64,000 nt of DNA, taken from positions 62,001 through 126,000 of the forward strand of contig NZ_CP085524.1 of NCBI RefSeq assembly GCF_004353525.1. Reading direction: 5' to 3'. The translations under genes and the position numbers were made by a program. This stretch comes from Zhaonella formicivorans (GTDB lineage: Bacteria > Bacillota > DUOV01 > Zhaonellaceae). The first letter of the stretch is position 1. Each line of letters begins with the position of its first letter. A model generated the notes under the pieces. It was not told the DNA's origin and searched no databases. It was given only the letters and a program-made list of their open reading frames with translations. Below, piece by piece: positions 20,860-63,817 of the stretch.

Positions 20860-21396
20860 ATGCTAGGTGAAAAAATCCGTAGGAAACGCATAGAAAAAAA
20901 TATGAGTTTAAAAGAACTCGCTGAAAAAATAGAACTAACAGCAAGTTTTCTCAGTCAGGTTGAACGGGAACTGGCTGAACCTTCTATAACATCCCTGCGC
21001 AAGATTGCGGAAGCATTGGATGTGCCTATTTTTTATTTCCTGCTGGATGACGAAGACCACAGCCCGGTGGTTAGAAAAAGTCAAAGGAAGGTTTTGCGTT
21101 TTCCGCAGTCCCACCTTACTTATGAACTGTTGTCGCCTGATTTGAACAGGCAAATGGAAGTGCTTATCGCTAGGCTGGACCCCGGGGCATCCAGTGGTGA
21201 CGAGGCTTCCTCCCACCCTGGAGAGGAGTGCATCTTGGTATTAGAAGGTAAAATGGAAATCAAGGTAGGTGAGGAAACTTATTACTTGGAGGAAGGGGAT
21301 AGTATTTACTATTTTGCTTCAATACCGCATTCTTTAAGAAACTGTGGTGATGGCCAGTTAGTGTTTTTGTCAGCGATAACACCGCCTCAATTTTAG
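20860..21396 (+). CDS. XRE-family regulator with cupin domain
   Basis: 178-residue regulator. Residues about 5-58 are an HTH-XRE domain (IRRKRIEKNMSLKELAEKIE through FLSQVERELAEPSITSLRKI); residues about 105-175 form a cupin_2 barrel (HPGEECILVLEGKMEIKVG, EEGDSIYYFASIPHSLRN) that may sense a small ligand. Regulators of this type often control adjacent catabolic genes. It stands alone before the first PLP enzyme of the island and is a good candidate for a local controller. The ribosome binding site is GGGGGA, 7 bases before the ATG. Confidence 0.88.
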   Translation: MLGEKIRRKRIEKNMSLKELAEKIELTASFLSQVERELAEPSITSLRKIAEALDVPIFYFLLDDEDHSPVVRKSQRKVLRFPQSHLTYELLSPDLNRQMEVLIARLDPGASSGDEASSHPGEECILVLEGKMEIKVGEETYYLEEGDSIYYFASIPHSLRNCGDGQLVFLSAITPPQF

Positions 21397-21505
21397 TGTC
21401 AGGGAACAGTTTTATTGGTTTTTAAGCGCCCTATGGTTTATGCCTGGGAGCTAAAAATAAACTAAAACATTATGTGCCAACAAAATAATGAAAGGGGTAA
21501 GAAAC

Positions 21506-23002
21506 ATGGCAAAATGGAAGTTAATAGACTTGACTATCCATGAAGAAACTCTAGAAAAAACTGTACAGCGTGCTAGGGAAAGAAACATCATTATTCCCAC
21601 AATTGAGCAAATGAAGAATCCCGAAAAGATCCCTGCTAAGATCAAAGAACAATTAAAAAGCATTGGGCTATGGGATATCAATCCTTTAAACTTATTTAGA
21701 ATTACCTGGAAAAACGAACCCGTTAAAGAAGGTGGGCTTTACAACTCTCTTCCTAACTATATCGAAATACCTCCCGAAATATCCGGTGTTAATGCGAGAA
21801 TCTTTGCACTTTCCGGCAAATGGTTCCCTATTGGCGCCCATAAAGTTGGTGCAAGTTTTGCATGTTTAGTCCCGCGGCTTGTTACCGGACAATTCGATCC
21901 TACTTTCCACCAGGCTGTATGGCCTTCAACCGGTAACTACTGCCGTGGCGGAGCATATAACTCCTCGTTATTAGCTTGCCAGTCAATCGCTATCCTACCT
22001 GAAAACATGAGCAAAGAGCGCTTCGAGTGGCTGAAGAAAGTTGCAGGAGAAGTCATTGCTACTCCGGGATGTGAAAGTAACGTCAAAGAGATCTACGATA
22101 AGACTTGGGAATTGAGAAGAACCAGAGATAACGTTATGATTTTCAACCAATTTGGTGAATTGGGCAACCACCTCTGGCACTACGAAGTTACAGGCCATGC
22201 TATGGAAGATGTTCTTAAGGCAGAAATGGGTCCCAATGACAGACTGGCAGGCGTGTGCTTAACTTCGGGCTCTGCCGGTACCCTGGGCAGTGGAGACTAC
22301 CTGAAGGATGTCTATCCGAACAGCAAGATTGCCGTGGGCGAGGCATTACAGTGCCCCACACTCTTAAATAACGGTTTTGGCGATCACAGGATTGAAGGTA
22401 TTGGCGATAAGCACGTACCCTGGATTCATAACGTAAAGAATACAGATATGGTTATTGCCATTGATGATAACGACAGTTTAGGCTTATTCCGCCTGTTCAA
22501 CGAGCCTGCCGGCCACGAATACCTCAGAGAACAAGGGGTTTCTGAAGAATTAATTGCTAAGCTTCCGTGGGTAGGTATTTCCGGCGCTGCCAACATCTTG
22601 TGTGCCATTAAGTTTGCCAAGTACTATGAATTGACCAAGAACGATGTAGTTATTACTGTGCTGACAGATTCCGCCGAGATGTATCAATCCAGATTGGAAG
22701 AAATGAGAGAGGCAAAAGGCGGCAAATATGAGAAATTTGATGCTGCTATTGACCATGCTAAACACGTTCAGGCGGTCAGAACCGATTCAATGCAAGAATT
22801 AACTTACCAAGACAGGAAACGTATTCATAACCTGAAATACTACACTTGGATTGAACAGCAGATGTATGATCTTGATGAGTTGAATGCCCAGTGGTACGAT
22901 TATGACAATTACTGGGGTGAGCTGCATAAGATGGCCCCGGAACTTGACAAGTTAATTAAGCAATTTAACGACAGAACAGGATTGCTTAAAGGTTTAGAGT
23001 AA
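21506..23002 (+). CDS. Fold-type II PLP-dependent enzyme of uncertain reaction
   Basis: 498 residues from ATG at 21506 (AAAGGGG 9-13 bases upstream; ATG 21488 is an alternative). IGAHKVGASFACLVP around residue 110 looks like the lysine-PLP segment of the cysteine synthase/tryptophan synthase beta fold, and TSGSAGTLGSGDYLK the phosphate-binding loop; GISGAANILCAIKFAKYY lies nearer the C-terminus. It is about 100-150 residues longer than ordinary cysteine synthases or diaminopropionate ammonia-lyase (YgeX). It is followed by serine dehydratase and the Mo-hydroxylase accessory genes, suggesting a lyase or beta-replacement step on an amino acid made from purine. I cannot name the substrate. Confidence 0.7.
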   Translation: MAKWKLIDLTIHEETLEKTVQRARERNIIIPTIEQMKNPEKIPAKIKEQLKSIGLWDINPLNLFRITWKNEPVKEGGLYNSLPNYIEIPPEISGVNARIFALSGKWFPIGAHKVGASFACLVPRLVTGQFDPTFHQAVWPSTGNYCRGGAYNSSLLACQSIAILPENMSKERFEWLKKVAGEVIATPGCESNVKEIYDKTWELRRTRDNVMIFNQFGELGNHLWHYEVTGHAMEDVLKAEMGPNDRLAGVCLTSGSAGTLGSGDYLKDVYPNSKIAVGEALQCPTLLNNGFGDHRIEGIGDKHVPWIHNVKNTDMVIAIDDNDSLGLFRLFNEPAGHEYLREQGVSEELIAKLPWVGISGAANILCAIKFAKYYELTKNDVVITVLTDSAEMYQSRLEEMREAKGGKYEKFDAAIDHAKHVQAVRTDSMQELTYQDRKRIHNLKYYTWIEQQMYDLDELNAQWYDYDNYWGELHKMAPELDKLIKQFNDRTGLLKGLE

Positions 23003-23086: not shown

Positions 23087-23749
23087 ATGACGTTGGACGT
23101 TTTTGATATTATTGGCCCCATCATGATTGGGCCGTCCAGTTCCCATACTGCCGGGGCAGTGCGTTTAGGCAGGCTTGCTCAAGCAGTTTTCGGGGAAATA
23201 CCGGAACAAGTTGATATTTTCCTGCACGGATCTTTTGCAAAGACTTACAAGGGCCACGGTACAGACGTGGCCCTTGTAGCAGGTCTTTTGGGTTTAGATA
23301 CTGACGATGCGGGAATTGCTTCAGCCCTTGAGTTGGCAAAAGTTCGGGGTTTGACTGTTAGTTTTATTCCTGCTGATTTGGGGGCTGTCCACCCTAATAC
23401 TGCCAAGCTGGTTATGCGCAAACAGGGCAGAAAAAGGGAGGTTTTGGGCTCCTCCATTGGCGGCGGTAACATTGTGGTAACTCAAATTGACGAATTTACT
23501 GTTGATTTGCGGGGCGATTTTTACACTATTATTGCTACTTATCTTGACCGCCCAGGCATGGTTGCCAAAGTTTCCGCACTTTTGGCCAAAGGCAGGGTAA
23601 ACATTGCCCAAATGAAAGTATCCAGGGTTGATAAAGGCGCCCAAGCCCTGATGGTGGTAGAAATTGATAATCAGGTGCCCGATGAAATAGCAGAGGAAAT
23701 ACGAGGGTTGGAAGGTATACAGAGTTTGTTGAAGATTAAACCTATCTAG
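23087..23749 (+). CDS. sdaAB: L-serine dehydratase, iron-sulfur-dependent, beta subunit
   Basis: 220-residue beta chain of the oxygen-labile [4Fe-4S] serine deaminase that makes pyruvate and ammonia. VFDIIGPIMIGPSSSHTAGAV is the family N-terminus; KRREVLGSSIGGGNI is in the core; residues from about 145 form a C-terminal ACT domain (YLDRPGMVAKVSALLAKG) for amino-acid sensing. GGAGGAG precedes the ATG. It is directly followed by the alpha subunit. Confidence 0.93.
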   Translation: MTLDVFDIIGPIMIGPSSSHTAGAVRLGRLAQAVFGEIPEQVDIFLHGSFAKTYKGHGTDVALVAGLLGLDTDDAGIASALELAKVRGLTVSFIPADLGAVHPNTAKLVMRKQGRKREVLGSSIGGGNIVVTQIDEFTVDLRGDFYTIIATYLDRPGMVAKVSALLAKGRVNIAQMKVSRVDKGAQALMVVEIDNQVPDEIAEEIRGLEGIQSLLKIKPI

Positions 23750-23769
23750 CGAAAGGAGGACTGGAAGCG

Positions 23770-24657
23770 ATGTTCTATAAAACCGTGGCGGAACTAGTGA
23801 AAACAGCTGAACAAAGAAAGTGTCCCATTTCAACCATTGTACTGGAGAATCAAGTAGAAAACACGGAACTGACCTTAGATGAACTGCTGAAACAGATGGA
23901 TAAAAACTGGTCAGTTATGGTTGAAGCTATGGAGCGGGGACTAAATGAAGAGGTGCGCTCCGTCAGCGGGTTGACCGGTGGTGACGCCAAAAAACTGTAT
24001 CAGGCGCATTTAAGTGGTTCCAGTCCCCTTAGCGGTGGTCCTGTTATGGAGACGGTAGCCAGGGCTTTGGCTGTGGCGGAAGTGAATGCTGCCATGGGCA
24101 GAATCGTGGCTGCCCCTACAGCAGGTTCTTGCGGTGTAGTGCCGGCCGTTGTTTATACTGTTGCCAATTTAAGAGGCAATTCCCGTTCTGACATAGTGAA
24201 AGCGCTTTTTACTGCTGCGGGATTTGGCATGATTATCGCTTACAATGCCTCAATTTCGGGAGCAGAGGGTGGCTGCCAGGCAGAATGTGGTTCGGCATCC
24301 TGTATGGCGGCTGCGGCCGCGGTGGAATTGGCCGGCGGAACTCCGGTTCAGGCTGCCCATGCCGGAGCTATTGCTTTAAAAAATGTTTTAGGTCTTGTAT
24401 GCGATCCGGTTGCTGGTTTGGTAGAAGTCCCGTGCATCAAGCGCAATGCCATGGCAGCTGCCAACGCTATGGTTGCCGCCGATTTGGCGTTATCCGGCAT
24501 TGAGAGCCGGATACCTATAGATGAGGTAATTGGCGCTATGAAGGAGATCGGAAAATCCATGCCGGCAACTTTAAAGGAAACAGCTTGCGGGGGATTAGCC
24601 AATACACCTACGGCAAGACTTTTGGAAAGGCAGCTCTTTGAAGCTTACGAGGAGTAA
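23770..24657 (+). CDS. sdaAA: L-serine dehydratase, iron-sulfur-dependent, alpha subunit
   Basis: 295-residue catalytic chain with cluster cysteines in APTAGSCGVVPAVVY, GGCQAECGSASCMAAAAA and LVCDPVAGLVEVPC. The two-subunit organisation is typical of Gram-positive anaerobes. With glyA nearby it supplies glycine to serine to pyruvate conversion. The ribosome binding site is AAAGGAGG, 11 bases before the ATG. Three bases separate its stop from yqeC. Confidence 0.94.
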   Translation: MFYKTVAELVKTAEQRKCPISTIVLENQVENTELTLDELLKQMDKNWSVMVEAMERGLNEEVRSVSGLTGGDAKKLYQAHLSGSSPLSGGPVMETVARALAVAEVNAAMGRIVAAPTAGSCGVVPAVVYTVANLRGNSRSDIVKALFTAAGFGMIIAYNASISGAEGGCQAECGSASCMAAAAAVELAGGTPVQAAHAGAIALKNVLGLVCDPVAGLVEVPCIKRNAMAAANAMVAADLALSGIESRIPIDEVIGAMKEIGKSMPATLKETACGGLANTPTARLLERQLFEAYEE

Positions 24658-24660
24658 TTC

Positions 24661-25419
24661 ATGAATATTTCAGAAGTTTTGGATTTAGATAAATATAGGG
24701 TGATAACGCTGGTTGGGGCAGGGGGGAAGACCTCCACGCTGCTGGCGATGGCCCATGAAGTACAAGAAAAGGGTATTAAAACAATTATTACAACCACAAC
24801 TAAAATGGCTGGCGATGAGGTCGCCGGCTTTAAGCTGATTTTGCACAATTCACTGGAAAAGCTGAGCTCCGGTTTGGCAGCTGGCCTCCATCAAGCGGGC
24901 GCTGTTGTTGTTGGCCGTGGGATGAGTGCTGAAGGGAAACTGCTGGGGATTGCGCCTGAGTGGGTAAGCGTCTTGAGTGATTACTCCCCAGACTGCATTT
25001 TTCTGATTGAGGGGGACGGTGCTGCCAGAAAACCCTTTAAAGCTCCCGGTAATAATGAGCCGGTTGTTCCTGACCGCACTAATCTGTTAATTGGGTTAGT
25101 GGGTGTGGATGCAATCGGCTTGTCATTAACTGAGGATAATATCCATCGGGCACACCGAGTCAGCAGTTTAACAGGTCTGCCCCTGGGTGCTGATTTAACC
25201 GTACAGGCTATTGCCGAGGTAATGATGCATCGCCATGGGTATAAAAAAAATCTGCCTCCCCACGCAGAGTACCTGGCCGTAATTAATAAAGTAGACACTT
25301 TCAGGGAGCTGCGGCAAGCAAGGGAATTGGCTGCTGCGCTTTTAGCAGCAGGATGCCCGAAAGTAATCATAGCAGCTATGCAGCAAAAATTTAAAGTCCG
25401 GGAGGTGCTGACCCGGTGA
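24661..25419 (+). CDS. yqeC: Selenium-dependent Mo-hydroxylase accessory protein YqeC
   Basis: 252 residues. A P-loop-like LVGAGGKTSTLLAMAHE lies near residue 15, followed by TTTTKMA and FLIEGDGAARKPFKAP. This is the pattern of the YqeC family that accompanies selenium-dependent molybdenum hydroxylases; it is predicted to be a nucleotide-binding maturation factor with no firmly proven reaction. It is sandwiched between sdaAA and mocA and overlaps mocA by 4 bases. Confidence 0.85.
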   Translation: MNISEVLDLDKYRVITLVGAGGKTSTLLAMAHEVQEKGIKTIITTTTKMAGDEVAGFKLILHNSLEKLSSGLAAGLHQAGAVVVGRGMSAEGKLLGIAPEWVSVLSDYSPDCIFLIEGDGAARKPFKAPGNNEPVVPDRTNLLIGLVGVDAIGLSLTEDNIHRAHRVSSLTGLPLGADLTVQAIAEVMMHRHGYKKNLPPHAEYLAVINKVDTFRELRQARELAAALLAAGCPKVIIAAMQQKFKVREVLTR

Positions 25420-26012
25420 AAATTGCAGTTGTAATTCTTGCTGCAGGCAAAGCTTCCCGCATGGGCAGGACCAAGCAGCTTCTACCCTGGGGTGAAAGCA
25501 CATTGCTGGGCAGTACTATAGATTTATACACCGGAGCAAAGGTTGATGAAGTTATAGTAGTGGTCGGACATTGTGCTGCTGAAATCAGGGCTGCCTTAAA
25601 AGATAAAGCTGTTCGCTGGGTAGAAAACAAAGCATATGAACAGGGTATGTCCACCTCCCTGAAAGCAGGTATAGAGGCTTTAAATGATGGTGTTTCAGCA
25701 GTTTTACTGGCCTTGGGGGATTTGCCGTTATTGAAAAAGGAAACCATTAGGTGTATGCTTAAAATATATAAAAATAATAATTGTAAAATAGTTATTCCTT
25801 ATTATCACAATAAGAGGGGTAATCCTGTTTTAATTTCCAGGGAATTATTTCCGGAGCTTTTAGCTATCCAAGGGGATCAGGGGGCCAGGGAAGTAATAAA
25901 AAAATACGAAAGCCAGGTCTATAAACTCCCCGTAGATGATCCCGGCATCCTGCAGGATGTTGATACTTGGGAAGATTATAAAAGGCTGTTAGCTCAAAGC
26001 CATCAGCCATGA
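25416..26012 (+). CDS. mocA: Molybdenum cofactor cytidylyltransferase (MocA-like)
   Basis: 198-residue nucleotidyltransferase. ILAAGKASRMGRTKQLLPWG is the signature of the MocA/CTP:molybdopterin cytidylyltransferase family, and LALGDLPLL the metal-binding loop. It would make the cytosine dinucleotide cofactor for the xanthine-dehydrogenase-type enzyme at 60588. The last codons (AQSHQP, CAAAGCCATCAGCCA) fall inside a repeat array, so its C-terminus may have been rewritten by repeat growth. Confidence 0.87.
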   Translation: MKIAVVILAAGKASRMGRTKQLLPWGESTLLGSTIDLYTGAKVDEVIVVVGHCAAEIRAALKDKAVRWVENKAYEQGMSTSLKAGIEALNDGVSAVLLALGDLPLLKKETIRCMLKIYKNNNCKIVIPYYHNKRGNPVLISRELFPELLAIQGDQGAREVIKKYESQVYKLPVDDPGILQDVDTWEDYKRLLAQSHQP

Positions 26013-26082
26013 GCTATCTTGAAAATAGCTATAACGTCTATGTCCTGTCGCTCCCAAGGTAGCTTCCACGGACATAAACGTT
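25996..26082 (-). repeat. Repeat array plus fragment of the 315-bp element (copy C)
   Basis: AGCCATCAGCCATGAGC overlaps the end of mocA, then AGCTATCTTGAAAATAGCT followed by ATAACGTCTATGTCCTGTCG at 26012-26050 matches one end of the element at 12054-12366 and 54451-54770. AACGTCTATGTCC and GGACATAAACGTT (26069-26081) form a hairpin. Only about 70 bases of the element are present. Confidence 0.7.
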
Positions 26083-26201
26083 GACCTAATTTTCACTGTA
26101 CTGCTGGTGCTGACGATAAGCAATGGTGTCTATTTTGAAAATGTGGCGGCTAACGTGCATAGCGCATGCATTGCTGTGCGACGCTTTGGAGGTGTAATGG
26201 T

Positions 26202-27005
26202 TTGAACCAAATATTAGTACTAATCAAGGGGGCCGGCGATTTGGCCACGGGTGTGGCGCACCGCTTGTTCAGGGCTGGATTTCGGGTCTTAATGACCGAA
26301 TTGGCACAGCCTACGGTAATTCGCCGCACTGTATCCTTTGCTGAAGCCATCTATACCGGTGAGAATAATGTTGAAGGGATAAGTGCAAGAGTAGCGACAG
26401 AAGATAATTGGCAAGAAGTGCTGGCACAGGCCAAAGTTCCGGTTTTGGTTGACCCTGAGGCTAAAATTATTGGACAGGCTAAACCGGAAGTGGTGATAGA
26501 TGCGATCATTGCGAAAAAAAACCTTGGTACTAACCCACGGTTGGCGCCGGTTGTCATAGCTCTAGGCCCTGGATTTTCCGCCCCGGAAGATGCCCATGCC
26601 GTTATTGAAACCCAGCGGGGCCACGATTTAGGAAGGGTGATCTACCGGGGACAGGCCCTGCCTAACACAGGTGTTCCCGGCGAAATCGGAGGTAAAAGCT
26701 GGGAAAGGGTGTTACGCGCTCCCAGGGACGGTGTGTTTCAAAGTCAGGCGCAAATTGGTGATTTTGTACAGGCGGGCCAAGTAGTAGGACATGTGGAAGG
26801 GGTGCCTGTATCATCCTTACTAACGGGGTACTTACGTGGCATCCTGCGTGACGGTCTGGAGGTCCACGAGGGAATGAAAATAGGTGATGTAGATCCCCGA
26901 GCCGAAAAGTCTCACTGCTTTACTATTTCCGATAAGGCCAGAGCTCTTGGAGGAGCGGTTTTGGAGGCTATGCTATATCTCCTTCGCCAACAAGGAGTGT
27001 TATGA
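26202..27005 (+). CDS. yqeB: Selenium-dependent molybdenum hydroxylase system protein YqeB
   Basis: 267 residues from TTG at 26202, which follows GGAGGTG with 7 bases; the frame could extend to 26166 with atypical residues. LIKGAGDLATGVAHRLFRAGF is a Rossmann-like start and VIALGPGFSAPEDAHAVIET a second conserved stretch of the YqeB/EF2570 family. It is found with selenium-dependent molybdenum hydroxylases and is thought to act in their maturation, possibly in selenium insertion. It lies between mocA and an XdhC-like gene. Confidence 0.87.
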   Translation: MNQILVLIKGAGDLATGVAHRLFRAGFRVLMTELAQPTVIRRTVSFAEAIYTGENNVEGISARVATEDNWQEVLAQAKVPVLVDPEAKIIGQAKPEVVIDAIIAKKNLGTNPRLAPVVIALGPGFSAPEDAHAVIETQRGHDLGRVIYRGQALPNTGVPGEIGGKSWERVLRAPRDGVFQSQAQIGDFVQAGQVVGHVEGVPVSSLLTGYLRGILRDGLEVHEGMKIGDVDPRAEKSHCFTISDKARALGGAVLEAMLYLLRQQGVL

Positions 27006-27062
27006 GTTTTGAGTTTTGAGTTTTGAGTTTTGAGTTATGAGTTTTGAGTTATGAGTTTTGAG
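27003..27062 (+). repeat. Tandem GAGTTTT heptamer repeat
   Basis: About eight head-to-tail copies of TGAGTTT or TGAGTTA start within the yqeB stop codon and continue to 27062. Slipped-strand variation is likely. Confidence 0.9.
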
Positions 27063-27101
27063 CGAAGGTTGCGTTGGTCGCTGAAGAGGAGAGAATAATA
27101 T

Positions 27102-28157
27102 ATGGATAAAAAAGTGCTTGATGCCATAATTGAATTAGTTAGTGAGGAAACCCCTGCGGTATTGGCTACCATCATAAAAGTAACAGGTTCTGTTCCTCGG
27201 CACGAGGGCGCTAAAATGCTGGTTTTCCCCGAAGGCAGGGTAGTTGGGACGATTGGCGGCGGTTGTGGAGAGGCTGAGGTCCGCAGGGAAGCGCTCATTG
27301 TATTGGATACTAACCAGCCCAGAAGTTACTCGGTCTACTTAAACAGCGATTTGGCTGCTGATGAAGGTATGGTTTGTGGCGGGATAATGGAAGTTTTTTT
27401 GGAACCGGTAGGAGAAAAACTTATCTTTCAAAAAGCCCGAGAGTGTTTGGAAGCTTCCCGCCCTGCTGTGTTAGTAACAGCTTTAGAACAGCGTGCGCGC
27501 AAGGCCCTTTATGACGTGAACGGGAAACTGCTGGCAGGCGAAGAGCAACCGGGCATAACAGCAGATAAATTAAAAACCGTTTTTGCTGCGGGTCGCGCTT
27601 CTTCCGAAGATTTTCCGGGTTTGGGGCGCGTGCTGCTGGAGCCGGTTCTACCTGTAGAAAAGCTGTTAATCTTAGGAGCAGGGCATGTTGCCCAGCCGGT
27701 GGCTCTAATGGGCAAATGGCTGGATTTTCATGTTACCGTTATTGATGACCGGCCTGACTTTGCCAATCAGGTCCGTTATCCCGGGGTGGATGAAGTTATC
27801 TGCGCCGATTTTGTAAGCGCTATCCGCCAGTATGGCATTGATCCAAATACATACATAGTTATTGTTACGAGAGGACATCAATACGATGAAGCCTGCCTGC
27901 GGGAGGTATTGGGCAGTTCCGCCAAGTACCTGGGGATGATTGGCAGCAGGAGAAGGGTCAAGCTGTTATTAAATAAACTTAAGGAGGAAGGATTCCCTGC
28001 GGAGGACCTAGATAAAGTAAAAAGCCCGATTGGTTTAAATATCGGGGCAGAAACACCTGCTGAAATTGCTGTCAGTATCTTGGCGGAAATTATAGCTGTG
28101 CGCAGAGGCCGGGATAGCTGTCAGCCACCAGCCGTCAGCTGTCAGCCAAAACAATAG
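27102..28157 (+). CDS. XdhC/CoxI-family Mo-hydroxylase maturation protein
   Basis: 351 residues. The N-terminal XdhC domain (PAVLATIIKVTGSVPRHEGA near residue 20, then GTIGGGCGEAEV) and a C-terminal Rossmann domain (LLILGAGHVAQPVALMGK near 190, YLGMIGSRRR near 275) define the family, which binds molybdenum cofactor and inserts it, sulfurated, into xanthine dehydrogenases. The final residues (DSCQPPAVSCQPKQ) are encoded by an intergenic-type repeat array, so the natural end may lie near RRGRD. It follows yqeB after a tandem repeat. Confidence 0.9.
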   Translation: MDKKVLDAIIELVSEETPAVLATIIKVTGSVPRHEGAKMLVFPEGRVVGTIGGGCGEAEVRREALIVLDTNQPRSYSVYLNSDLAADEGMVCGGIMEVFLEPVGEKLIFQKARECLEASRPAVLVTALEQRARKALYDVNGKLLAGEEQPGITADKLKTVFAAGRASSEDFPGLGRVLLEPVLPVEKLLILGAGHVAQPVALMGKWLDFHVTVIDDRPDFANQVRYPGVDEVICADFVSAIRQYGIDPNTYIVIVTRGHQYDEACLREVLGSSAKYLGMIGSRRRVKLLLNKLKEEGFPAEDLDKVKSPIGLNIGAETPAEIAVSILAEIIAVRRGRDSCQPPAVSCQPKQ

Positions 28158-28276: not shown

Positions 28277-28549
28277 CATTCATACTGCCTGCATTAAATA
28301 TAATTAAATTTTTTAAAGTGTAAAAAAGGAATTCCCTGTTCAGCGTTGAATATAATTAAATACATGGGACATAATTTAAGAAGTGTTTAATTTTTTCCAG
28401 ATTATAGCTTGAATGCAGTTTTGGTCGAAATTTTAAATCTATCCTGGGTTGGTTAGTTGCAGTTGCCTGCTTGTGACCCCTTTTAACGTTGACGCAACTG
28501 TTAACTGCTTTTAATTTATTTTAACTTGTTAATGCTAGGAGGATGGAGG

Positions 28550-50295: not shown

Positions 50296-50296
50296 C

Positions 50297-53096: not shown

Positions 53097-53138
53097 TTAA
53101 TTATATAGAAATGCTGAAATAATAAAGGAGTGACATCA

Positions 53139-54876: not shown

Positions 54877-56238
54877 ATGGCCCTGATTATTAAAAACGGC
54901 TCGGTAGTAACGGAACAAGGTGTGGTCAACAAGGACCTAAAGGTGGAAAATGAAAAGATCGCTGTCATTGCAGACAACATTGAGGCAAGCGTTTCTGATG
55001 AGGTGATCGATGCCAGGGGCAAATTGGTCTTGCCTGGGGTAATCGATGCTCACGTTCACTTTAATATGCCTGCGGGAAATACGGTGACAGCCGATAATTT
55101 TGAGAGCGGAACCACCTCTGCCGCTTGCGGAGGGGTTACTACCTTTATTGATTATGCTGAACTGGTAGAAGGAAAAACACTGCTTGAGTCTCTGAAAATT
55201 CGTGAAGCGCAAGCAATTGGGCATAGCTTCATAGATTATAACTTACATTTAGAAATACCCGGTCAATGCGATTTTTCTCTGCTCGACGAGTTAGAGGAAA
55301 TTAAAGCATATGGTGTTAAAAGTTTAAAAGTTTACACTACTTATGCCATGCAGCTTCCCGATGCCAAGATTAAAGAACTGTTGAAGAAAGCCGGAAAGCT
55401 GGGCATGCTGGTTACGATTCATGCTGAAGATAATGATATTGTGCTTGCCATGAAAGAAGAGTTTCTGGCCAAGGGAAAAACCTCCCCTGCTTATCATGCT
55501 GCCAGCAGGCCCCATATTGTTGAAACTAATTGCATTGAGAAAATGATCGCATATGCCAGAGAGGCTGAAGCACCGGTGTATTTTGTTCATGTTTCAACCG
55601 GGGAAGGAGCCCGGAAAATTAAGAAGGCGCAGGAAGAAGGACAAGTTGTCTACGGCGAAACCTGCCCCCATTATCTGGTTTTAACCGATGAGTGCTATGA
55701 AAGGCCTCAAGCTCAAAAGTATATTATGACACCTCCTTTACGTAAAAAAGAAGACCAGGACTTATTGTGGGAGGGCCTGGCTAATGGTACTTTCCAGTGT
55801 ATCACTACTGACCATTGTGCTTTTTCATTGGAACAGAAATTGGCATCGGATTCCTGTTTTAATTCTCTAGCCGGTATCCCTGGAACCGAGACGCTGCTTC
55901 CCTTGGTATACAGTGAAGGAGTGGCGAAAGGCAGGATTACATTAGAGCAAATGGTAAGCTTGTTAGCTACGAACCCTGCTAAAATTTTTGGCCTATACCC
56001 ACAAAAAGGTGTGATTGCAGAGGGAAGCGATGCTGATCTGACTTTACTGGATCCTGAAAAAGAGGTAACTTTGACAGGTGAAGCGTTACACTCGGCTTCC
56101 GGCTATACTCCCTTTGAAGGTATGCGGGTCAAGGGATATCCCATTTTAACCATCCTGCGGGGAAAGGTCTTGTATCAGGATGGAAAATTTGTGGCAGAAG
56201 CCCCCGAGGGAAGATTTGTAAAAGCTGTAAGCAAATAA
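54877..56238 (+). CDS. Dihydropyrimidinase/hydantoinase-family cyclic amidohydrolase
   Basis: 453 residues. The binuclear metal site is clear: D-x-H-x-H in VIDAHVHFNMPAG, the lysine to be carboxylated in VKSLKVYTTYA, His in VTIHAEDND and VYFVHVSTGEG, Asp in TTDHCAFS. The family opens cyclic imide or ureide rings; E. coli HyuA/YgeZ of the purine island belongs here. It is a candidate for opening the pyrimidine ring of xanthine or another ureide. ATG 54877 follows GGGGGGAAGGAA; the frame upstream to 54742 runs through repeat DNA and is rejected. Confidence 0.88.
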   Translation: MALIIKNGSVVTEQGVVNKDLKVENEKIAVIADNIEASVSDEVIDARGKLVLPGVIDAHVHFNMPAGNTVTADNFESGTTSAACGGVTTFIDYAELVEGKTLLESLKIREAQAIGHSFIDYNLHLEIPGQCDFSLLDELEEIKAYGVKSLKVYTTYAMQLPDAKIKELLKKAGKLGMLVTIHAEDNDIVLAMKEEFLAKGKTSPAYHAASRPHIVETNCIEKMIAYAREAEAPVYFVHVSTGEGARKIKKAQEEGQVVYGETCPHYLVLTDECYERPQAQKYIMTPPLRKKEDQDLLWEGLANGTFQCITTDHCAFSLEQKLASDSCFNSLAGIPGTETLLPLVYSEGVAKGRITLEQMVSLLATNPAKIFGLYPQKGVIAEGSDADLTLLDPEKEVTLTGEALHSASGYTPFEGMRVKGYPILTILRGKVLYQDGKFVAEAPEGRFVKAVSK

Positions 56239-56579: not shown

Positions 56580-57515
56580 ATGAAGACAGTAGTTGTGGCC
56601 CTCGGAGGCAATGCAATTTTGCAGCCTAAGCAAAAGGGGACTATCGAAGAACAAATGGCTAACGTCAACGCCAGTGCCAAAAACATCGTTAAGCTGATTC
56701 AGGAAGGTTACCGGGTTGTTGTGGCTCATGGCAACGGCCCCCAGGTGGGCAACATCCTCTTGCAAAACGCTGCTGCCCGGGAACAGGTTCCGGCTATGCC
56801 GCTGGATGTTTGCGGTGCAGAAAGCCAGGGACTGATTGGCTACATGATTCAGCAAAATATCCGGAACGAGCTGAAAAAAGCCGGAATTGATAAACCGGTG
56901 GTTACTATCTTAACCCAAGTGGTTGTGGACCGTCATGACCCCGCTTTTCAAAACCCTACAAAGCCGGTTGGTGCTTTCTACAGCAAGGAAGAAGCGGAGA
57001 AAAACATGAAAGAAAAAGGAGAAACCTGGATTGAAGACAGCGGGCGCGGCTGGAGAAAAGTCGTACCATCCCCTAAACCACAGGAAGTGGTGGAATTAGA
57101 GGCAGTCCGTACCCTGGTGGAGACCGGTGCGGTGGTAATCGCCGTCGGCGGCGGAGGGATTCCTGTTGTTAAGGAGGGCGATAAGCTTGTAGGAGTTGAG
57201 GCGGTTATTGATAAAGATTTGGCCAGCAGTTTGTTAGCTAAAAATTTAGGAGCGGATATCCTGGCAATTGCGACTGATGTTCCCTATGTAGCTATAAATT
57301 ACGGTAAGCCTGACCAAAAGAATTTAAAAAGCATGACCGTAGCAGAGGCTAAAAAATACCTGGAAGAAGGCCAGTTCGGTAAAGGCAGCATGGGACCTAA
57401 AGTGCAGGCTGTGCTTAACTTTGTGGAGGCAGGCGGCCAAGGCATCATTACTTCGCTGGACACTTTGCGGGAAGCGGTGGTGGGCGATGCCGGCACTAAG
57501 GTAGTAAATAGCTAA
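56580..57515 (+). CDS. arcC: Carbamate kinase
   Basis: 311 residues. VVALGGNAILQPKQKGTIEE, VVVAHGNGPQVGNILLQ and VIAVGGGGIPV are the substrate and ATP sites of carbamate kinases (ArcC/YqeA). It makes ATP from carbamoyl phosphate and ADP. No ornithine carbamoyltransferase or arginine deiminase is nearby; the carbamoyl phosphate source here is most likely YgeW. ribosome binding site GAGGAGG, 8 bases before the ATG. Confidence 0.94.
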   Translation: MKTVVVALGGNAILQPKQKGTIEEQMANVNASAKNIVKLIQEGYRVVVAHGNGPQVGNILLQNAAAREQVPAMPLDVCGAESQGLIGYMIQQNIRNELKKAGIDKPVVTILTQVVVDRHDPAFQNPTKPVGAFYSKEEAEKNMKEKGETWIEDSGRGWRKVVPSPKPQEVVELEAVRTLVETGAVVIAVGGGGIPVVKEGDKLVGVEAVIDKDLASSLLAKNLGADILAIATDVPYVAINYGKPDQKNLKSMTVAEAKKYLEEGQFGKGSMGPKVQAVLNFVEAGGQGIITSLDTLREAVVGDAGTKVVNS

Positions 57516-57772: not shown

Positions 57773-59110
57773 GTGTCACAAGTTAACGACTTACGGTCTT
57801 TTATTGAGGTGCTCAGAACTAACAACCAGCTAGCCGAAATTGAAAAAGAAGTCAGCCTCCAATATGAAATCGGCACCGTTTTGGCCAATCTGGAGAAAAA
57901 GAACCTGGGGGCAGGCTTTTTTAAAAATGTCAAGGACCGGGATATCCCGGTAATTGGCGGCGTTCTTGGTTCTATGGAAAGGATCGCCTTAGCCCTGGGG
58001 TGCAGCAAGGATAAAATAGTGGAAGTTACAGGCCAAGCCCTGGACAACCCCATTAAGCCTGTAAAGGTAGCCAATGCTCCCTGCCAGGAAAATATTTTGA
58101 CCGGCGACCAGGTGGACTTGGGCAAACTGCCTATTCCCCAGCACGCCCCGAAAGACGGCGGGCCATTTATCACCGGCGGGGTAATAGTTTCCAAAGAACT
58201 GCATGGCACTCGCCAGAACCTGTCCTTCCAAAGGATGCAGGTCAAAGGCAGGGATAAGCTCGGCATCATGATCAACGAGTGGCGGCATCTGAAGGAATTC
58301 TACGATGAGGCGGAAGCCGAGGGTAAAGCTCTGCCCATCGCAATTGCCATTGGCGTAGACCCGGTGATTTACATCGGGGCCGGCTTGCGCTACGACGGTG
58401 ATGAAATGGAACTGGCCGGCGCTTTGAGGGGGGAACCCATCGAGGTTGTTAAGTGTATCACCTCGGATGTTTATGTGCCTGCCAGGGCTGAAATTATCAT
58501 TGAGGCGGAAGTTGTCCCCAATTACAGGGAAGAGGAAGGGCCGCTGGGTGAATTTACAGGGCATTACAGCGATCCCTGGCCCAGCCCCACGCTGAAGGTC
58601 AATGCGATCACATATAGAAATAACCCCATTTACCAGACTATTGCCGGTGCTTCTTTCGAGCATATCAATTTAGGCAATGTGCTGCCCCGGGAGCCGCTCC
58701 TGAAGAAGTTTACCACTTATGTTTCCAAAGGAGTAATCAACGTTCACATTCCTCCTTACGGCAGCGGCTTCCTGGCACTGGTGCAGCTCAGAAAGAAAAA
58801 CCCGGGTGAACCCAAGAATGTGGCTTTGGCAGCCATGATGACTTATGTCAACATTAAGAATGTGATTGTGGTAGACGAGGATGTAGATATCTACAACCCG
58901 TCCGATGTGATGTGGGCTGTGTCCAACAGGGTAGTGCCTGAACGGGACATTTTCTACATTCCCAACGCCCAGGGCCATGAACTGGATCCTTGCTCTGACA
59001 ACAGGGGTGTACAAACAAAGATGGGAATTGACGCTACTTTGGCTGAAGACAGCAAAGGCTTGGAGCGTGTGGTTTATCCTGATGTGGACTTGAGCGAATA
59101 CCTGAAATAG
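57773..59110 (+). CDS. UbiD-family prenylated-FMN decarboxylase
   Basis: 445 residues. GPLGEFTGHYSDPWPSPTLK with the catalytic glutamates, QHAPKDGGPFITGGVIVSKE and NLSFQRMQVKGRDKLGIMI are typical of UbiD, which needs prenylated FMN made by UbiX; no ubiX is visible here. UbiD enzymes (de)carboxylate aromatic and unsaturated acids. Within a purine island it is a candidate for removing the carboxylate of an imidazole intermediate such as 4-amino-5-imidazolecarboxylate. The start is GTG 57773 after GGGGAGGG. It belongs to a run with the next three genes. Confidence 0.88.
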   Translation: MSQVNDLRSFIEVLRTNNQLAEIEKEVSLQYEIGTVLANLEKKNLGAGFFKNVKDRDIPVIGGVLGSMERIALALGCSKDKIVEVTGQALDNPIKPVKVANAPCQENILTGDQVDLGKLPIPQHAPKDGGPFITGGVIVSKELHGTRQNLSFQRMQVKGRDKLGIMINEWRHLKEFYDEAEAEGKALPIAIAIGVDPVIYIGAGLRYDGDEMELAGALRGEPIEVVKCITSDVYVPARAEIIIEAEVVPNYREEEGPLGEFTGHYSDPWPSPTLKVNAITYRNNPIYQTIAGASFEHINLGNVLPREPLLKKFTTYVSKGVINVHIPPYGSGFLALVQLRKKNPGEPKNVALAAMMTYVNIKNVIVVDEDVDIYNPSDVMWAVSNRVVPERDIFYIPNAQGHELDPCSDNRGVQTKMGIDATLAEDSKGLERVVYPDVDLSEYLK

Positions 59111-59145: not shown

Positions 59146-60459
59146 ATGGCAACTGTAATTAAAGGCGGTTTTTTAATGACCGAAGAGGGCATCAAAAAAG
59201 ACTGGGGAGTAAGAGTGGAGGGCAACAGGATTGTCCAAGTGGGTCCTAACGGAGGACTGCGAGTGGATTCCGGTGACAAAGTGCTGGATGCCACTGACAG
59301 GCTGGTAGCTCCTGGTTTTATCAACGGGCACATGCATATGTACGGGGTTTTATCCCACGGCATTACAGTGGAAGCGCTGGTCACGGAGTTCTCCAGCTTT
59401 TTGGAAGATTTCTGGTGGCCCTACGTTGAAGACCGCCTCGATCACCAATTAGTAGAGATAACCACCAGGTGGGCCTGTGTGGAGATGATTAAAAGCGGCA
59501 TTACCACCTTTATGGACGTGCTGGAGGGTCCTAATTCCATTCCCGGAGCTTTGGAGGTAGAAGCAAAAGTTGTCAACGCGGCAGGTCTAAGGGGCATTCT
59601 CACTTTTGAGGCCTGTGAGCGCATGGGCAAAGAGAACGGACAGCTCGGACTGAAAGAAAACGCCGACTTTGTCAGGAAATACAACAAGCCGGGCAATTTA
59701 GTACAGGGCATGATGAGCATCCACACCCTCTTCACCGCTGACCAGGACTATGTGGTTCAGGCCAGGGAAATGGCCAAGGAATTGGGCTGCGATATCCATA
59801 TGCACCTTTCTGAAAGCGTTTATGAGCCCAACTGGACTTTAAAAAGATATGGTAAGCGGCCTGTGGAGATCTATGATGAGTTGGGATATATGGGACCCAA
59901 TGTGGTTGCCTCCCAAGGCGTGCAGCTTGAACCCCATGAGATCGACATTATCGCCAAGCGGGGAGCCAGACTGGTGCACATGCCCCTCTCCAACTGCGAA
60001 GTGGGCGGCGGTGTGGCACCCGTGCCGGATCTCCTGGCAAAAGGGATTAAGGTAGGCCTTGGTACCGATGGCTATGTAAACAGTTTCTTTGAAGTGATGC
60101 GGGGCGCTTTCCTGATTCATAAAGCATACCGCCAGGACCCCCAGGTAATGCCGGCGAAAGACGTTTACAAGATGGCAACCAGCCTTGGGGCAGAAGCATT
60201 GGGTTATAAGGATTTAGGGAAGCTGGAAGAAGGCTGTCTGGCTGACATCATTACAATTAAAATAGATACGCCGACCCCAATCAATGAGCACAACGTCTAT
60301 GACCAGCTGGTGCTCTTCCGCAACCCTTCCGACGTAGTTGACGTAATGGTTGACGGCAAGTTTGTCATGGAGAGCGGCAGGCTTCTGACTGTTGATGAAG
60401 AAAAGGCTAAGGCTGAAACCAGGGCGGCAGCCGATAAGTTTTGGAAGGGCAACAAATAG
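59146..60459 (+). CDS. SsnA-like amidohydrolase
   Basis: 437 residues, COG0402 deaminase group. NGHMHMYGVLSHGI holds H-x-H, FLEDFWWPYVEDRLD is a segment shared with SsnA aminohydrolases, DIHMHLSES gives the next His and GLGTDGYVNSFFEVM the Asp. SsnA accompanies selenium-dependent xanthine dehydrogenase genes. It is only distantly related to the two amidohydrolases at 35899 and 51444. GGGAGGG precedes the ATG; it follows the decarboxylase by 35 bases. Confidence 0.85.
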   Translation: MATVIKGGFLMTEEGIKKDWGVRVEGNRIVQVGPNGGLRVDSGDKVLDATDRLVAPGFINGHMHMYGVLSHGITVEALVTEFSSFLEDFWWPYVEDRLDHQLVEITTRWACVEMIKSGITTFMDVLEGPNSIPGALEVEAKVVNAAGLRGILTFEACERMGKENGQLGLKENADFVRKYNKPGNLVQGMMSIHTLFTADQDYVVQAREMAKELGCDIHMHLSESVYEPNWTLKRYGKRPVEIYDELGYMGPNVVASQGVQLEPHEIDIIAKRGARLVHMPLSNCEVGGGVAPVPDLLAKGIKVGLGTDGYVNSFFEVMRGAFLIHKAYRQDPQVMPAKDVYKMATSLGAEALGYKDLGKLEEGCLADIITIKIDTPTPINEHNVYDQLVLFRNPSDVVDVMVDGKFVMESGRLLTVDEEKAKAETRAAADKFWKGNK

Positions 60460-60587: not shown

Positions 60588-62942
60588 ATGCCACTGATGG
60601 GGAGCAAGAGCTTCAGGGTTCTGAATAGGGCGGTACCCCGGGTTGATGCGGTTGACAAGGTTACGGGCCGTGCTCAATATGCTGCTGATCTGAAATTTCC
60701 CAATATGCTGGTGGGCGGATGCCTGAGAAGCGGGTTAAGCCATGCTAACATTGTCAAAATCGATACTTCCAAGGCAAAAGCTATTCCCGGTGTAAAAGCT
60801 GTCTTAACTGCAGCGGATATTCCCAAACCGCAAAGCTGGGCCGACTACATGTACATCACCGATAAAGTCAGGTATGTGGGCGATGTTGTGGCCATAGCGG
60901 CTGCCGAGGACAAAGAAACCCTCGAAGAGGCTTTAAAAGCAATTGAGGTTGAATACGAAGAGCTGGAGGGTGTATATACCATTGACGACGCCTTAAAACC
61001 CGACGCAATCCAGGTCAGGGAAAAGGGTGTAGGCTTGGTGGACGGTATCCCCACACCCGGGACTAAAGGAAACGTTTTCTTAGAGTCATATTACCCAATA
61101 CGCAAGGGAAATGTGGAAGAAGCCTTCAAGCAGTGTGACGTGATTATTGAACGGGAGTACAGGACCCAATTTGTGGAGCATTCCTATATTGAACCGGAAG
61201 CTTGTGTGGCGGTTTCCAACCCGGTTGACGGCACCATGACGGTTTATTCATCTTCCCAGAACCCCTTTTTTGGCAGAAGGTATATTGCCGATGCTTTGCA
61301 AATTCCAATGAATAAGGCCCGTCTAGTACAGCAGACGCTGGGCGGATCTTTCGGGGGTAAAGAGGAACTGGTAGGGCTCACGGTAGGCAGGGCAGCTTTA
61401 CTTGCCAAAGCCACCGGTCGACCGGTGAAAATGGTGGTGAGCCGGGAAGAGTCTTTCCTGGAGAGCTCCAAGCGCCATCCCTTCAGGTTCCGTTACAAAA
61501 TCGGGGCGACTAAAGACGGCAGGATTTTGGCTTTGGAAGGTCAGCTGATTGACAACAGCGGTGCCTATAACAACCAGACCCAGTATATGAACTGCAGGGC
61601 GGCTATCCATTCTGCCGGCGTTTATAATATACCCAACGTCAAAACCGACACTTTCGGCGTCTTCACCAACAATATCCATGGAGGGGCATTCCGCGGGTAC
61701 AGCTCACCGCAGGTTATCTTTGCCCAGGAATCCTTAATTGAGGAATTGGCTGAGGCGCTGAACATGGATGTCATTGAATTAAGAAGAAAGAACTTGTTAA
61801 AACAGTACGACTTAACTGCAACCGGCCAAAAGCTGGTCCAACCTACGCTTATCCGGGAAATCATGGAATACATGTTGGAAAAAACGGACTTTGTGGCCAA
61901 ACGGGAGCAATATAAGCAGCAAACCGGACCAAAGAGGCGCGGCATTGGCTTTGTGACCTGTTACCGGGGCTGCGGCCTCGGAGCCGAATCGCCCGATGCC
62001 TCCGGTGCCCAAGTAACTGCCCTGGAAGACGGGACAATCATCATTAATTCCGGTACTGCCGAAAACGGGCAGGGTTTAAAGACCGCCTATACGCAGATTG
62101 CAGCTGAAGCTTTGGGGGTGCGGGTGGAGGATATCCACCATATCGGTGTGGATACCCATGCTATCGCCGACAGCGGTATGACTGTTGCTTCCCGGGGAAC
62201 GGTAATGGGTGCCCAGTCCATGAGAAAAGCAGCATTGAAGCTGAGAAAACTCCTTGAGGAAACTGCTGCGGATATGTTGAACCTTTCCCCGCTGGATGAA
62301 GTGGTAATCGAAGACAGCATGTGTTATGCCAAAAGCGATCCCAACACAAAGATACCGCTAAGCAAAGTATGTGCTGCCCGGCTCTGGTCCGGTAAACAGC
62401 TGAGCGTCTACGAATGGTTTGAACCCAAACCGCTGCATTTTGATCACCATACCGGCCAGGGGGATGTGTTCCCCACCTATTCCTACGCCTGCGTAGTGGC
62501 GGAAGTGGAGGTTGATCTGGAAACAGGCTATGTGGATGTGCTGAAAGTGTCTTCCGGCCATGACTGCGGCACAGTAATCAACCCCGCTTTGGCCAAAGGC
62601 CAGATCTACGGCGGTATAGCCATGGGAATGGGGTTTGCGCTTACTGAAGAAGTGGAAGTGGAGCAAGGAAAAGTAGGGACGGTAAACTTCGATTCCTATA
62701 TTTTCCCCACAGCCATGGATGTACCTGAAATGGAACCGGTATTGTTTGAATGCGACGATCCCGAGGGGACTTACGGGGCAAAAAGTTTAGGCGAGCCTGC
62801 GACGGAAGCTGTGGGAGCGGCAATTGCCAGCGCAGTGAACAGCGTGCTGAAAGAAGCCAGAGGTGAACGTCTCAGAAGGCTGCCCTTCGACCTGGAACGT
62901 GTGCTGTTAGGTAAATCCTTAAGGGCAGGAGGTAATTCCTGA
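60588..62942 (+). CDS. Xanthine-dehydrogenase-family molybdenum-binding subunit
   Basis: 784 residues. VDAVDKVTGRAQYAADLKFP starts the fused a/b-hammerhead domain; QTLGGSFGGKEEL and AFRGYSSPQ contact the cofactor; the catalytic glutamate is in KSLGEPATEAVGAAIA near the C-terminus. It has no iron-sulfur or FAD domain of its own. With yqeB, yqeC and mocA upstream, a selenium-dependent hydroxylase with cytosine-dinucleotide cofactor (XdhD type) is likely; the selenium would be a labile ligand, not selenocysteine. It overlaps the FAD subunit gene by one base. Confidence 0.92.
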   Translation: MPLMGSKSFRVLNRAVPRVDAVDKVTGRAQYAADLKFPNMLVGGCLRSGLSHANIVKIDTSKAKAIPGVKAVLTAADIPKPQSWADYMYITDKVRYVGDVVAIAAAEDKETLEEALKAIEVEYEELEGVYTIDDALKPDAIQVREKGVGLVDGIPTPGTKGNVFLESYYPIRKGNVEEAFKQCDVIIEREYRTQFVEHSYIEPEACVAVSNPVDGTMTVYSSSQNPFFGRRYIADALQIPMNKARLVQQTLGGSFGGKEELVGLTVGRAALLAKATGRPVKMVVSREESFLESSKRHPFRFRYKIGATKDGRILALEGQLIDNSGAYNNQTQYMNCRAAIHSAGVYNIPNVKTDTFGVFTNNIHGGAFRGYSSPQVIFAQESLIEELAEALNMDVIELRRKNLLKQYDLTATGQKLVQPTLIREIMEYMLEKTDFVAKREQYKQQTGPKRRGIGFVTCYRGCGLGAESPDASGAQVTALEDGTIIINSGTAENGQGLKTAYTQIAAEALGVRVEDIHHIGVDTHAIADSGMTVASRGTVMGAQSMRKAALKLRKLLEETAADMLNLSPLDEVVIEDSMCYAKSDPNTKIPLSKVCAARLWSGKQLSVYEWFEPKPLHFDHHTGQGDVFPTYSYACVVAEVEVDLETGYVDVLKVSSGHDCGTVINPALAKGQIYGGIAMGMGFALTEEVEVEQGKVGTVNFDSYIFPTAMDVPEMEPVLFECDDPEGTYGAKSLGEPATEAVGAAIASAVNSVLKEARGERLRRLPFDLERVLLGKSLRAGGNS

Positions 62943-63817
62943 TGATGCGCTTTGCATACTTAAGACCTGCTTCGGTTCAGGAAGCATGTGAGTTGCTGAA
63001 TAAATACGGCGGCGCGGCTAAAGTCATAGCCGGCGGCACCGACCTGATGGTCCAAATCCGCGATGAGGATAAAAAATTGGCGGGACTGAAATACGTGGTG
63101 GATATCAGCCAATTGAACGGCCTGCGCTACATCCAGGGAGACGAGGACGTGGTCCGCATTGGCGCCCTGGTTACCCATGACCAGATTTATAATTCGCCCA
63201 TGCTCAGGACAGCAGCGCCTTTTCTCCCCGCAGCCTGTAACACTGTCGGCTCACCCCAGATCAGGCACCGTGGCACCATCGGGGGAAGTGTCTGCAACGC
63301 TTCCCCGGCGGCGGACCCGGTACCGGCGCTGGTGGCACTGGATGCCAGCTTAAAGCTGGAAAGCGTGCGGGGGGTCAGGGTAGTGCCGGTTACAAGTGTT
63401 TTTGAAAAACCCTACCGTACGAATATCGCTGCTGATGAGCTGTTGACGGAAATCAGCTTTAAGCGGCTGCCGGCAGGAGCCAAAACAGCTTTCCTGAAGC
63501 TGGGCAGGAGAAAAGCGCTGGCCATTGCCAGAATGAATGTGGCTGTCTGCCTGGTTTTGGACGGAGAGGGGAAAGTGGCCGAGGCCCGTATTGCTCCCGG
63601 TTCCGTCCTGCCGAAGCCCGGCCGGGTAGCTGCTGCAGAGGAAGTGCTGGTAGGTAAGGTGCCAACTGCTGAGCTTTTGGAAGAGGCCGGTAAGAAAGTG
63701 GCGGAAGAAATGGTCAAACAATCGGGAATCAGGTGGTCTACTCCATATAAAGAGCCTGTGATTGCGGTTTTGACCCGCAGGGCGCTGCAGCAAGCGATAG
63801 TGTTAACTAACTTATGA
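62942..63817 (+). CDS. Xanthine-dehydrogenase-family FAD-binding subunit
   Basis: 291 residues. AKVIAGGTDLMVQIRDEDK and CNTVGSPQIRHRGTIGGSVC then NASPAADPVPAL are the two FAD segments of the CoxM/XdhB family, and FLKLGRRKALAIA the C-terminal domain start. It passes electrons from the iron-sulfur subunit to an acceptor. The third, [2Fe-2S] subunit is not in the remaining 183 bases. AGGAGG precedes two ATG codons at 62942 and 62945. Confidence 0.93.
   Translation: MMRFAYLRPASVQEACELLNKYGGAAKVIAGGTDLMVQIRDEDKKLAGLKYVVDISQLNGLRYIQGDEDVVRIGALVTHDQIYNSPMLRTAAPFLPAACNTVGSPQIRHRGTIGGSVCNASPAADPVPALVALDASLKLESVRGVRVVPVTSVFEKPYRTNIAADELLTEISFKRLPAGAKTAFLKLGRRKALAIARMNVAVCLVLDGEGKVAEARIAPGSVLPKPGRVAAAEEVLVGKVPTAELLEEAGKKVAEEMVKQSGIRWSTPYKEPVIAVLTRRALQQAIVLTNL

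Follow-up and report, generated by a model that had tools for sequence, protein, structure and literature searches.

A 64-kb window of the Zhaonella formicivorans genome (contig NZ_CP085524.1) holds, at window positions 20860–63817, an island of catabolic genes that, judged from gene content and homology, is a second, paralogous set relative to a canonical reductive urate cluster elsewhere in the same genome. With moderate confidence, we read the island as encoding a pathway that breaks down, anaerobically, a fused pyrimidine (purine- or pteridine-like) bearing an amino group and a carboxy or hydroxymethyl group; in this pathway the paralogous reductive urate set would be joined to an entry module. 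The locus is best described as a variant of the reductive purine-type pathway not described before, with a substrate that we infer from the gene set. Gene content was established by open reading frame (ORF) calling and by hidden Markov model (HMM) scans of the island ORFs against curated cut-offs; below, positions are those of the window unless the genome is named, and HMM scores are given against these cut-offs.

The canonical cluster lies at 495–510 kb of the genome (L119, 495000–510000) and exceeds the cut-offs for selenium-dependent xanthine dehydrogenase (Se-XDH, 1445 versus 830), SsnA (688 versus 456), YgeY (707 versus 322), YgfK (1615 versus 835), carbamate kinase and 8-oxoguanine deaminase; its own carbamoyltransferase (328 aa) resembles ornithine carbamoyltransferase (OTC-like) and is not the knotted YgeW. 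The island paralogs mostly miss the same cut-offs (SsnA 278 versus 456, the YgfK part 357 versus 835, Se-XDH 419 versus 830, YgeW 213 versus 500). An earlier note on this DNA had described the island as a near-complete purine fermentation system. Its near-completeness is not supported, because the SsnA-like, XDH, reductase and YgeW-type proteins fall short of thresholds reached at 495–510 kb; what stands of the purine assignment is the anaerobic fused-pyrimidine chemistry and the presence of genes typical of purine clusters. The name YgeW for the enzyme encoded at 31454 was likewise rejected, this protein being OTC-like (TIGR03316, 213 versus 500).

The canonical cluster has no HyuA or YgeX of its own. 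HyuA and a threonine-synthase-like (thrC-like) enzyme are single-copy in the genome and both island-borne, and the XRE regulator, PALP1 (a pyridoxal-phosphate (PLP)-dependent enzyme), thrC-like enzyme, HyuA, glyA, sda and carbamate kinase are found again in purine clusters, of which several have true SsnA and Se-XDH (L187, L188, L189). Since the genome has only one copy each of HyuA and the thrC-like lyase, and XRE, PALP1 and glyA or sda recur in this way, the island probably serves urate breakdown too, with these two enzymes used by both pathways. A second HyuA match in the genome shares 31% identity and extends over the end of a carbamoyltransferase match, which is why it is probably a dihydroorotase beside aspartate carbamoyltransferase. 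The same recurrence and single-copy status, together with the xanthine-type Glu and Arg retained in the pocket of the island Mo-hydroxylase, make it possible, if doubtful, that the island is the organism's xanthine/urate pathway itself, with the 495–510 kb paralogs as a second copy and with the UbiD decarboxylase, tungsten aldehyde oxidoreductase (AOR) and iron-dependent alcohol dehydrogenase (Fe-ADH) of the island doing side reactions. This explanation is opposed by the location elsewhere of the equivalog-level SsnA, YgfK, Se-XDH and YgeY set, by the separate clade of the island carbamoyltransferase, and by the way in which UbiD tracks that carbamoyltransferase and the SsnA-like amidohydrolase AH3, not SsnA.

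This tracking was quantified in 399 genomes drawn from Bacillota, with presence set at an identity of at least 61% for the island-type carbamoyltransferase and at least 49% for the island-type UbiD. The former occurs in 22/399 and the latter in 16/399, with 13 genomes shared (p = 3e-16). The association persists at genus level (9 shared of 9 and 11 among 267 genera, p = 3e-15) and with a stricter threshold of at least 70% on each protein (7 genomes in common out of 9 and 10, p = 1e-11); the p-values are only indicative, as the identity thresholds were picked after the identity lists had been seen. Among the UbiD- or carbamoyltransferase-bearing genomes checked, AH3 orthologs (44–83% identity) are present in 31/32 and true SsnA (at least 47%) in 25/32. 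A tree of carbamoyltransferases places the island-context sequences in a single clade (31 rows, support 99; 8/31 rows without a marker gene in the stretch read), and every sequence that lies beside a true SsnA falls outside it.

Sporomusa KB1 has the genes in a single run, AH2-importer-UbiD-XDH-flavoprotein-M20-UacY-AH3-reductase-HyuA (L032), and Pseudoflavonifractor-type genomes split the set into two modules (L033, L035, L104, L105, L112), namely importer-RibD_C-flavoprotein-AH-UbiD-UbiX and ygeY<>carbamoyltransferase-AH3-XDH-reductase. In one genus, the carbamoyltransferase-AH3-XDH module encloses an MtmB-like protein together with a B12-binding corrinoid protein (L111:3159-5236 in G048; L186 in G153), which hints at demethylation of an N-methylated base in that genus. 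The MtmB-like gene has no in-frame stop and thus no pyrrolysine codon.

The island in Z. formicivorans comprises the following genes.

20860–21396, plus strand: XRE-cupin regulator, PuuR-like, with 57–72% orthologs in island-type and canonical urate clusters.
21488–23002, plus strand: PALP1, PLP-dependent enzyme, found again in purine clusters (L180, L181, L188) and in a xanthinase-type locus (L102).
23087–24657, plus strand: sdaAB, Fe-S L-serine ammonia-lyase beta and alpha (serine to pyruvate); TIGR00719 231 (cut-off 161), TIGR00718 363 (cut-off 243).
24661–28157, plus strand: yqeC, mocA, yqeB and xdhC, selenium-dependent Mo/W enzyme maturation; the first three exceed cut-offs, XdhC-AOR factor 328 versus 350.
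28526–29791, plus strand: glyA, serine hydroxymethyltransferase, by HMM scan.
30206–31444, plus strand: YgeY-family M20 hydrolase; TIGR03526 408 (cut-off 321.5), 38% identical to E. coli YgeY.
31454–32545, plus strand: island-type carbamoyltransferase, OTC-like, equivalent to YgeW by context (HMM scores, tree).
32722–33360, plus strand: Fe-S flavoprotein with FMN_red fold and CxxCxxC..C motif.
33795–35836, plus strand: two permeases of BMP-type ABC importer A.
35899–37248, plus strand: AH1, deaminase-type amidohydrolase; nearest solved chain 3hpa, next 8-oxoguanine deaminase 7ww2.
37409–38434, plus strand: BMP/PnrA-type substrate-binding lipoprotein 1.
38619–39290, plus strand: Fe-S flavoprotein 2.
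39312–39587, plus strand: MoaD/SAMP-like protein (42 bits, cut-off 49.5).
39614–41131, plus strand: ABC ATPase of importer A.
41214–42233, plus strand: BMP-type substrate-binding protein 2.
42277–44034, plus strand: AOR-family tungsten aldehyde oxidoreductase, with both AFOR_N and AFOR_C domains.
44099–45250, plus strand: Fe-ADH, which adjoins UbiD in L039, L040, L041 and L185.
45381–46241, plus strand: RpiR-family regulator.
46477–51247, plus strand: BMP-type ABC importer B (substrate-binding protein 3, ATPase, two permeases), often a neighbour of UbiD elsewhere.
51435–52847, plus strand: AH2, deaminase-type amidohydrolase, a recurring partner of UbiD and carbamoyltransferase.
53130–54392, plus strand: thrC-like PLP enzyme, proposed functional replacement of YgeX, single copy in the genome.
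54742–56238, plus strand: HyuA, D-hydantoinase/dihydropyrimidinase; TIGR02033 491 (cut-off 393), sole HyuA-type gene in the genome.
56580–57515, plus strand: carbamate kinase; TIGR00746 442 (cut-off 358).
57773–59110, plus strand: UbiD decarboxylase dependent on prenylated FMN (prFMN), in a clade of its own; nearest solved chain 6h6v.
59146–60459, plus strand: AH3, SsnA-like paralog, putative ring-opening amidohydrolase (HMM score, motif).
60588–62942, plus strand: Mo-hydroxylase catalytic subunit (xdhMo), with xanthine-type Glu and Arg.
62942–63817, plus strand: Mo-hydroxylase FAD subunit; the 2Fe-2S subunit and a PreA/YgfK-type reductase follow beyond the window, past an IS6-like element.

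All 35 main ORFs, from the XRE regulator to the XDH FAD subunit, lie on the plus strand, as the earlier note had stated; minus-strand ORFs within the island are shorter and overlap plus-strand genes. The upstream genes gatA/gatB share this orientation, and the GC skew is positive all along, so it is the gene content that is special and not the single strand in itself. Further upstream of gatAB are a GGDEF/HD c-di-GMP protein (12582–14270) and an IS30 transposase (15727–16806); in L109, too, the XRE gene has a GGDEF-HD protein upstream of it. Rfam and tRNA scans of the 64-kb window gave no matches. The gene list of the earlier note is right in outline, its cyclic amidohydrolase (HyuA), UbiD and carbamate kinase scoring above cut-offs, its GlyA and serine dehydratase being found, and its selenium-linked accessory set being borne out by YqeC, MocA and YqeB, with SelD present in the genome (2511176–2512102, L202; 401 bits), as befits a selenium-dependent Mo-hydroxylase system. 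Because the SelD gene has an in-frame TGA, SelD itself is probably a selenoprotein. Two of the three amidohydrolases listed as deaminase-type, AH1 and AH2, carry the corresponding motif (TDGxGSNNS), whereas AH3 carries the SsnA-type TDGY..xFE; it shares this motif with the SsnA family, scoring 278 versus 455.5 in TIGR03314 with 29% identity to E. coli SsnA. Overlooked had been the tungsten AOR (42277), MoaD-like protein (39312), Fe-ADH (44099), Fe-S flavoproteins (32722, 38619), RpiR regulator (45381), thrC-like enzyme (53130) and PALP protein (21488).

A candidate for the reductase that a reductive pathway would need lies just outside the window. Past position 64000, an IS6-like element with a transposase ORF (L058:155-1632) separates the genes of the XDH FAD and 2Fe-2S subunits, and the latter is followed by an 843-aa protein in which a PreA/DHO_dh-type domain (residues ~15–311) is joined to a YgfK/GltD-type NAD(P)H part (~319–828); it misses the YgfK family cut-off (357 versus 835), and its role fits that of a pathway reductase. 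A relative (G002) has carbamate kinase-UbiD-AH3-xdhMo-xdhFAD-xdhFeS-reductase uninterrupted, with no insertion and 76–89% identity. Taken together, these two loci suggest that the dearomatising reductase exists and is set off here by an insertion sequence, which could exert a polar effect on both the Fe-S subunit and the reductase. The xdhMo protein stays under every XDH cut-off (TIGR03311, 419 versus 830); its alignment retains a Glu (GGKE), an Arg (AFRG) and a second Glu (GEP), with two Phe not kept. The first two align with the residue pair by which xanthine oxidase binds its substrate, the GEP Glu is the catalytic one, and the two Phe are those that sandwich xanthine.

The entry module includes UbiD (TIGR00148, 371 versus 245), which has a GEFTG Glu motif at residue 259 and a UbiX homolog in the genome (828948). 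The solved chain nearest to this UbiD, PDB 6h6v, is HmfF, a furan-2,5-dicarboxylate decarboxylase of the UbiD family. Across 32 UbiD loci, the commonest neighbours are Fe-S flavoproteins (16), AH2-type amidohydrolases (16), UbiX (13), Fe-ADH (10) and RibD_C proteins (7), with BMP importers also common; AOR adjoins carbamoyltransferase or UbiD in several lineages (L045, L064, L109, L110, L174, L184), and NCS2-type permease genes adjoin UbiD in two loci (L034, L036), which fits an oxo-purine-like base. In gut-type genomes and G412, island-type UbiD is regularly accompanied by the RibD_C protein, which has a DHFR-like fold (L033, L035, L044, L054, L042, L046, L174). Conserved blocks beside some UbiDs (radical SAM, AMMECR1, RecA, TusA, Band 7) were considered as parts of the system and look like ordinary flanks. 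Fe-ADH, AOR and UbiD fit the series CH2OH to CHO to COOH to H and point, together with the deaminases, to a ring substrate with a carbon substituent, an option that the earlier note did not contain.

The presence of UbiD, several amidohydrolases, GlyA and serine dehydratase could also suggest classical xanthinase fermentation (Xau, Rabinowitz), with UbiD as 4-aminoimidazole-5-carboxylate decarboxylase and formiminoglycine and glycine as products, and Xau has a decarboxylase step (PMC6620236). The UbiD tree and the partner genes led us to reject this assignment of UbiD, and we regard such a pathway as very unlikely: the island UbiDs form a clade (29 rows, support 95; 98 with five deeper relatives) separate from the Xau-type UbiDs, which were recognised by shell-protein and formiminotransferase neighbours (L103, L190); genome search and tree revealed no Xau-clade UbiD in Zhaonella; and one genome (G048) carries both types. 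The best hits of the island ORFs include neither the adenine-deaminase-like (XauA-like) amidohydrolase nor the PF04199 cyclase seen in L102/L103-type loci, and the island has no shell protein. It also has no formiminotransferase, a gap that the earlier note had itself recorded: both FTCD genes lie outside, at 3.138 and 3.313 Mb of the genome. A route to glycine through xanthinase is thus not borne out. Two loci (L103 and L190, in G049 and G087) are of the xanthine-utilisation microcompartment type, with UbiX, UbiD, a shell-domain protein, an adenine-deaminase-like protein and XDH, L103 having a formiminotransferase as well; a further locus (L102, in G048 C29), which combines UbiD with a formiminotransferase, a cyclase and an adenine-deaminase-like protein and has PALP1-type PLP genes on its flanks, is a putative xanthinase cluster.

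A series from CH2OH to H would also suit 5-substituted pyrimidines (5-hydroxymethylcytosine, 5-hydroxymethyluracil or 5-carboxyuracil), catabolized through a deaminase, Fe-ADH, AOR, UbiD as iso-orotate decarboxylase, a PreA-type dihydropyrimidine dehydrogenase, dihydropyrimidinase and phosphorolysis, and both the PreA-like domain of the reductase and the score of HyuA above the dihydropyrimidinase cut-off accord with this. We nevertheless think it unlikely, as it leaves no role for the conserved Mo-hydroxylase beside AH3, the paired YgeY and carbamoyltransferase or the purine-like lyases, and the deaminases resemble 8-oxoguanine deaminase. That the island degrades an unrelated heterocycle or a xenobiotic, for instance a triazine, is hinted at by the best PDB match of AH2, atrazine chlorohydrolase, and by a related BMP-type binding protein, that for atrazine (6pi5). 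This reading is highly improbable given the wide spread of the set in gut and sediment anaerobes, the purine-type partner genes and the lack of a triazine route through UbiD, Mo-hydroxylase and carbamoyltransferase. The closest PDB binding proteins, tried as a ligand guide, are varied BMP proteins, the atrazine one included, and no ligand was called.

For a substituted fused pyrimidine, the favoured substrate class, the genes would combine as follows. Two BMP-type ABC importers would take up the base, AH1 and AH2 would remove ring amino groups, and Fe-ADH and the tungsten AOR would oxidise a side group, CH2OH or CHO, to the COOH that UbiD, with prFMN from the genome's UbiX, would release as CO2. 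The Mo-hydroxylase may then adjust ring oxidation and the PreA/YgfK-type reductase dearomatise the pyrimidine-dione, with ring opening by AH3 (in SsnA's place) and HyuA. The carbamoyltransferase would yield carbamoyl phosphate by phosphorolysis, from which carbamate kinase would form ATP; YgeY would take off the final ureido or amide group, and the route to pyruvate would run through PLP lyases, GlyA and serine dehydratase. The 495–510 kb urate cluster probably draws on the same HyuA, lyases and carbamate kinase.

As to the substrate, our tentative best guess from the gene set is a pterin, such as 6-hydroxymethylpterin or pterin-6-carboxylate; these are naturally occurring fused pyrimidines that bear both an amino group and a hydroxymethyl or carboxy substituent. 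Equally tentatively, the island may encode an undescribed anaerobic degradation of folate-derived 6-hydroxymethyl- or 6-carboxypterin, in which the C6 group would be oxidised by Fe-ADH and AOR and then removed by UbiD, deamination by AH1/AH2 would give lumazine, and ring opening by the paralogous urate-type set would lead to carbamoyl phosphate, ammonia, glycine and pyruvate. Lumazine-6-carboxylic acid has been put forward as a possible intermediate of folate breakdown (PMC9513972). Further candidates are 8-carboxy-purines, 7-carboxy-7-deazaguanine and 5-substituted pyrimidines.

Several observations weigh against a dedicated pathway for such a substrate. The gut Pseudoflavonifractor-type UbiD modules have no nearby Fe-ADH or AOR but do contain a RibD_C protein, which shows that the alcohol-to-acid series does not occur everywhere. 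The entry-module enzymes are placed by family assignment, and their substrates are putative. HyuA, tried as a discriminator of imidazole-containing substrates, proved uninformative, being present in 34/35 genomes checked and hence unable to discriminate between substrates. Finally, the occurrence of XRE, thrC-like and PALP genes in true urate clusters leaves room for the island being a plain part of the urate pathway.

It was only in 2025 that the reductive urate pathway was worked out, and the locus reveals what appears to be a sister pathway with specialised ring-opening, carbamoyltransferase and Mo-hydroxylase enzymes. The sister set is co-inherited with UbiD in Clostridia, Halanaerobiales, a Fusobacteria metagenome-assembled genome (MAG), a Treponema MAG and culturable gut genera such as Pseudoflavonifractor. 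Should the substrate be a pterin or another modified base, this would fill a gap in how anaerobes, including gut bacteria, handle vitamin-derived and modified heterocycles. The locus also counsels caution: homology alone is insufficient to annotate SsnA-like, YgeY-like or XDH-like genes as urate degradation.

Our literature search joining UbiD, amidohydrolase, carbamoyltransferase and purine found no paper that combines them all. Xanthinase genes have reportedly been identified by Tong et al. in 2023, a study cited in PMC12507026. The closest known system is the reductive uric acid (yanthine) pathway of E. coli and C. difficile, which involves XdhD, YgfK or UacX, SsnA, HyuA, YgeW or UacY, YgeY and YgeX (PMC12507026). 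The island has counterparts for every step (Mo-enzyme, putative dearomatising reductase outside the window, SsnA-like protein, HyuA, carbamoyltransferase, M20 hydrolase, PLP lyase and carbamate kinase), which are 22–38% identical to the E. coli enzymes (38% for HyuA), carbamate kinase and the Fe-S subunit reaching 48%. However, its carbamoyltransferase is OTC-like and not YgeW, its lyase is thrC-like and not YgeX (22% identity to E. coli YgeX; 61 versus 276 for diaminopropionate ammonia-lyase), and UbiD, AOR, Fe-ADH, extra deaminases and BMP importers are added. Besides a decarboxylase and ring hydrolases, Xau loci have a formimidoyltransferase, and their microcompartment forms add shell proteins (PMC6620236); anaerobic operation, a decarboxylase step (of UbiD type here) and amidohydrolases are common to both systems, whereas the UbiD clade and the missing partners distinguish the island. 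The Variovorax pterin deaminase and folate degradation system (PMC9513972) deaminates a pterin ring, as the island would on the pterin reading, but it is aerobic, with no UbiD, AOR or reductive ring opening described. HmfF-type UbiD, the nearest solved relative, is a heteroaromatic decarboxylase, whereas the context of the island enzyme is the deamination and ring opening of an N-heterocycle.

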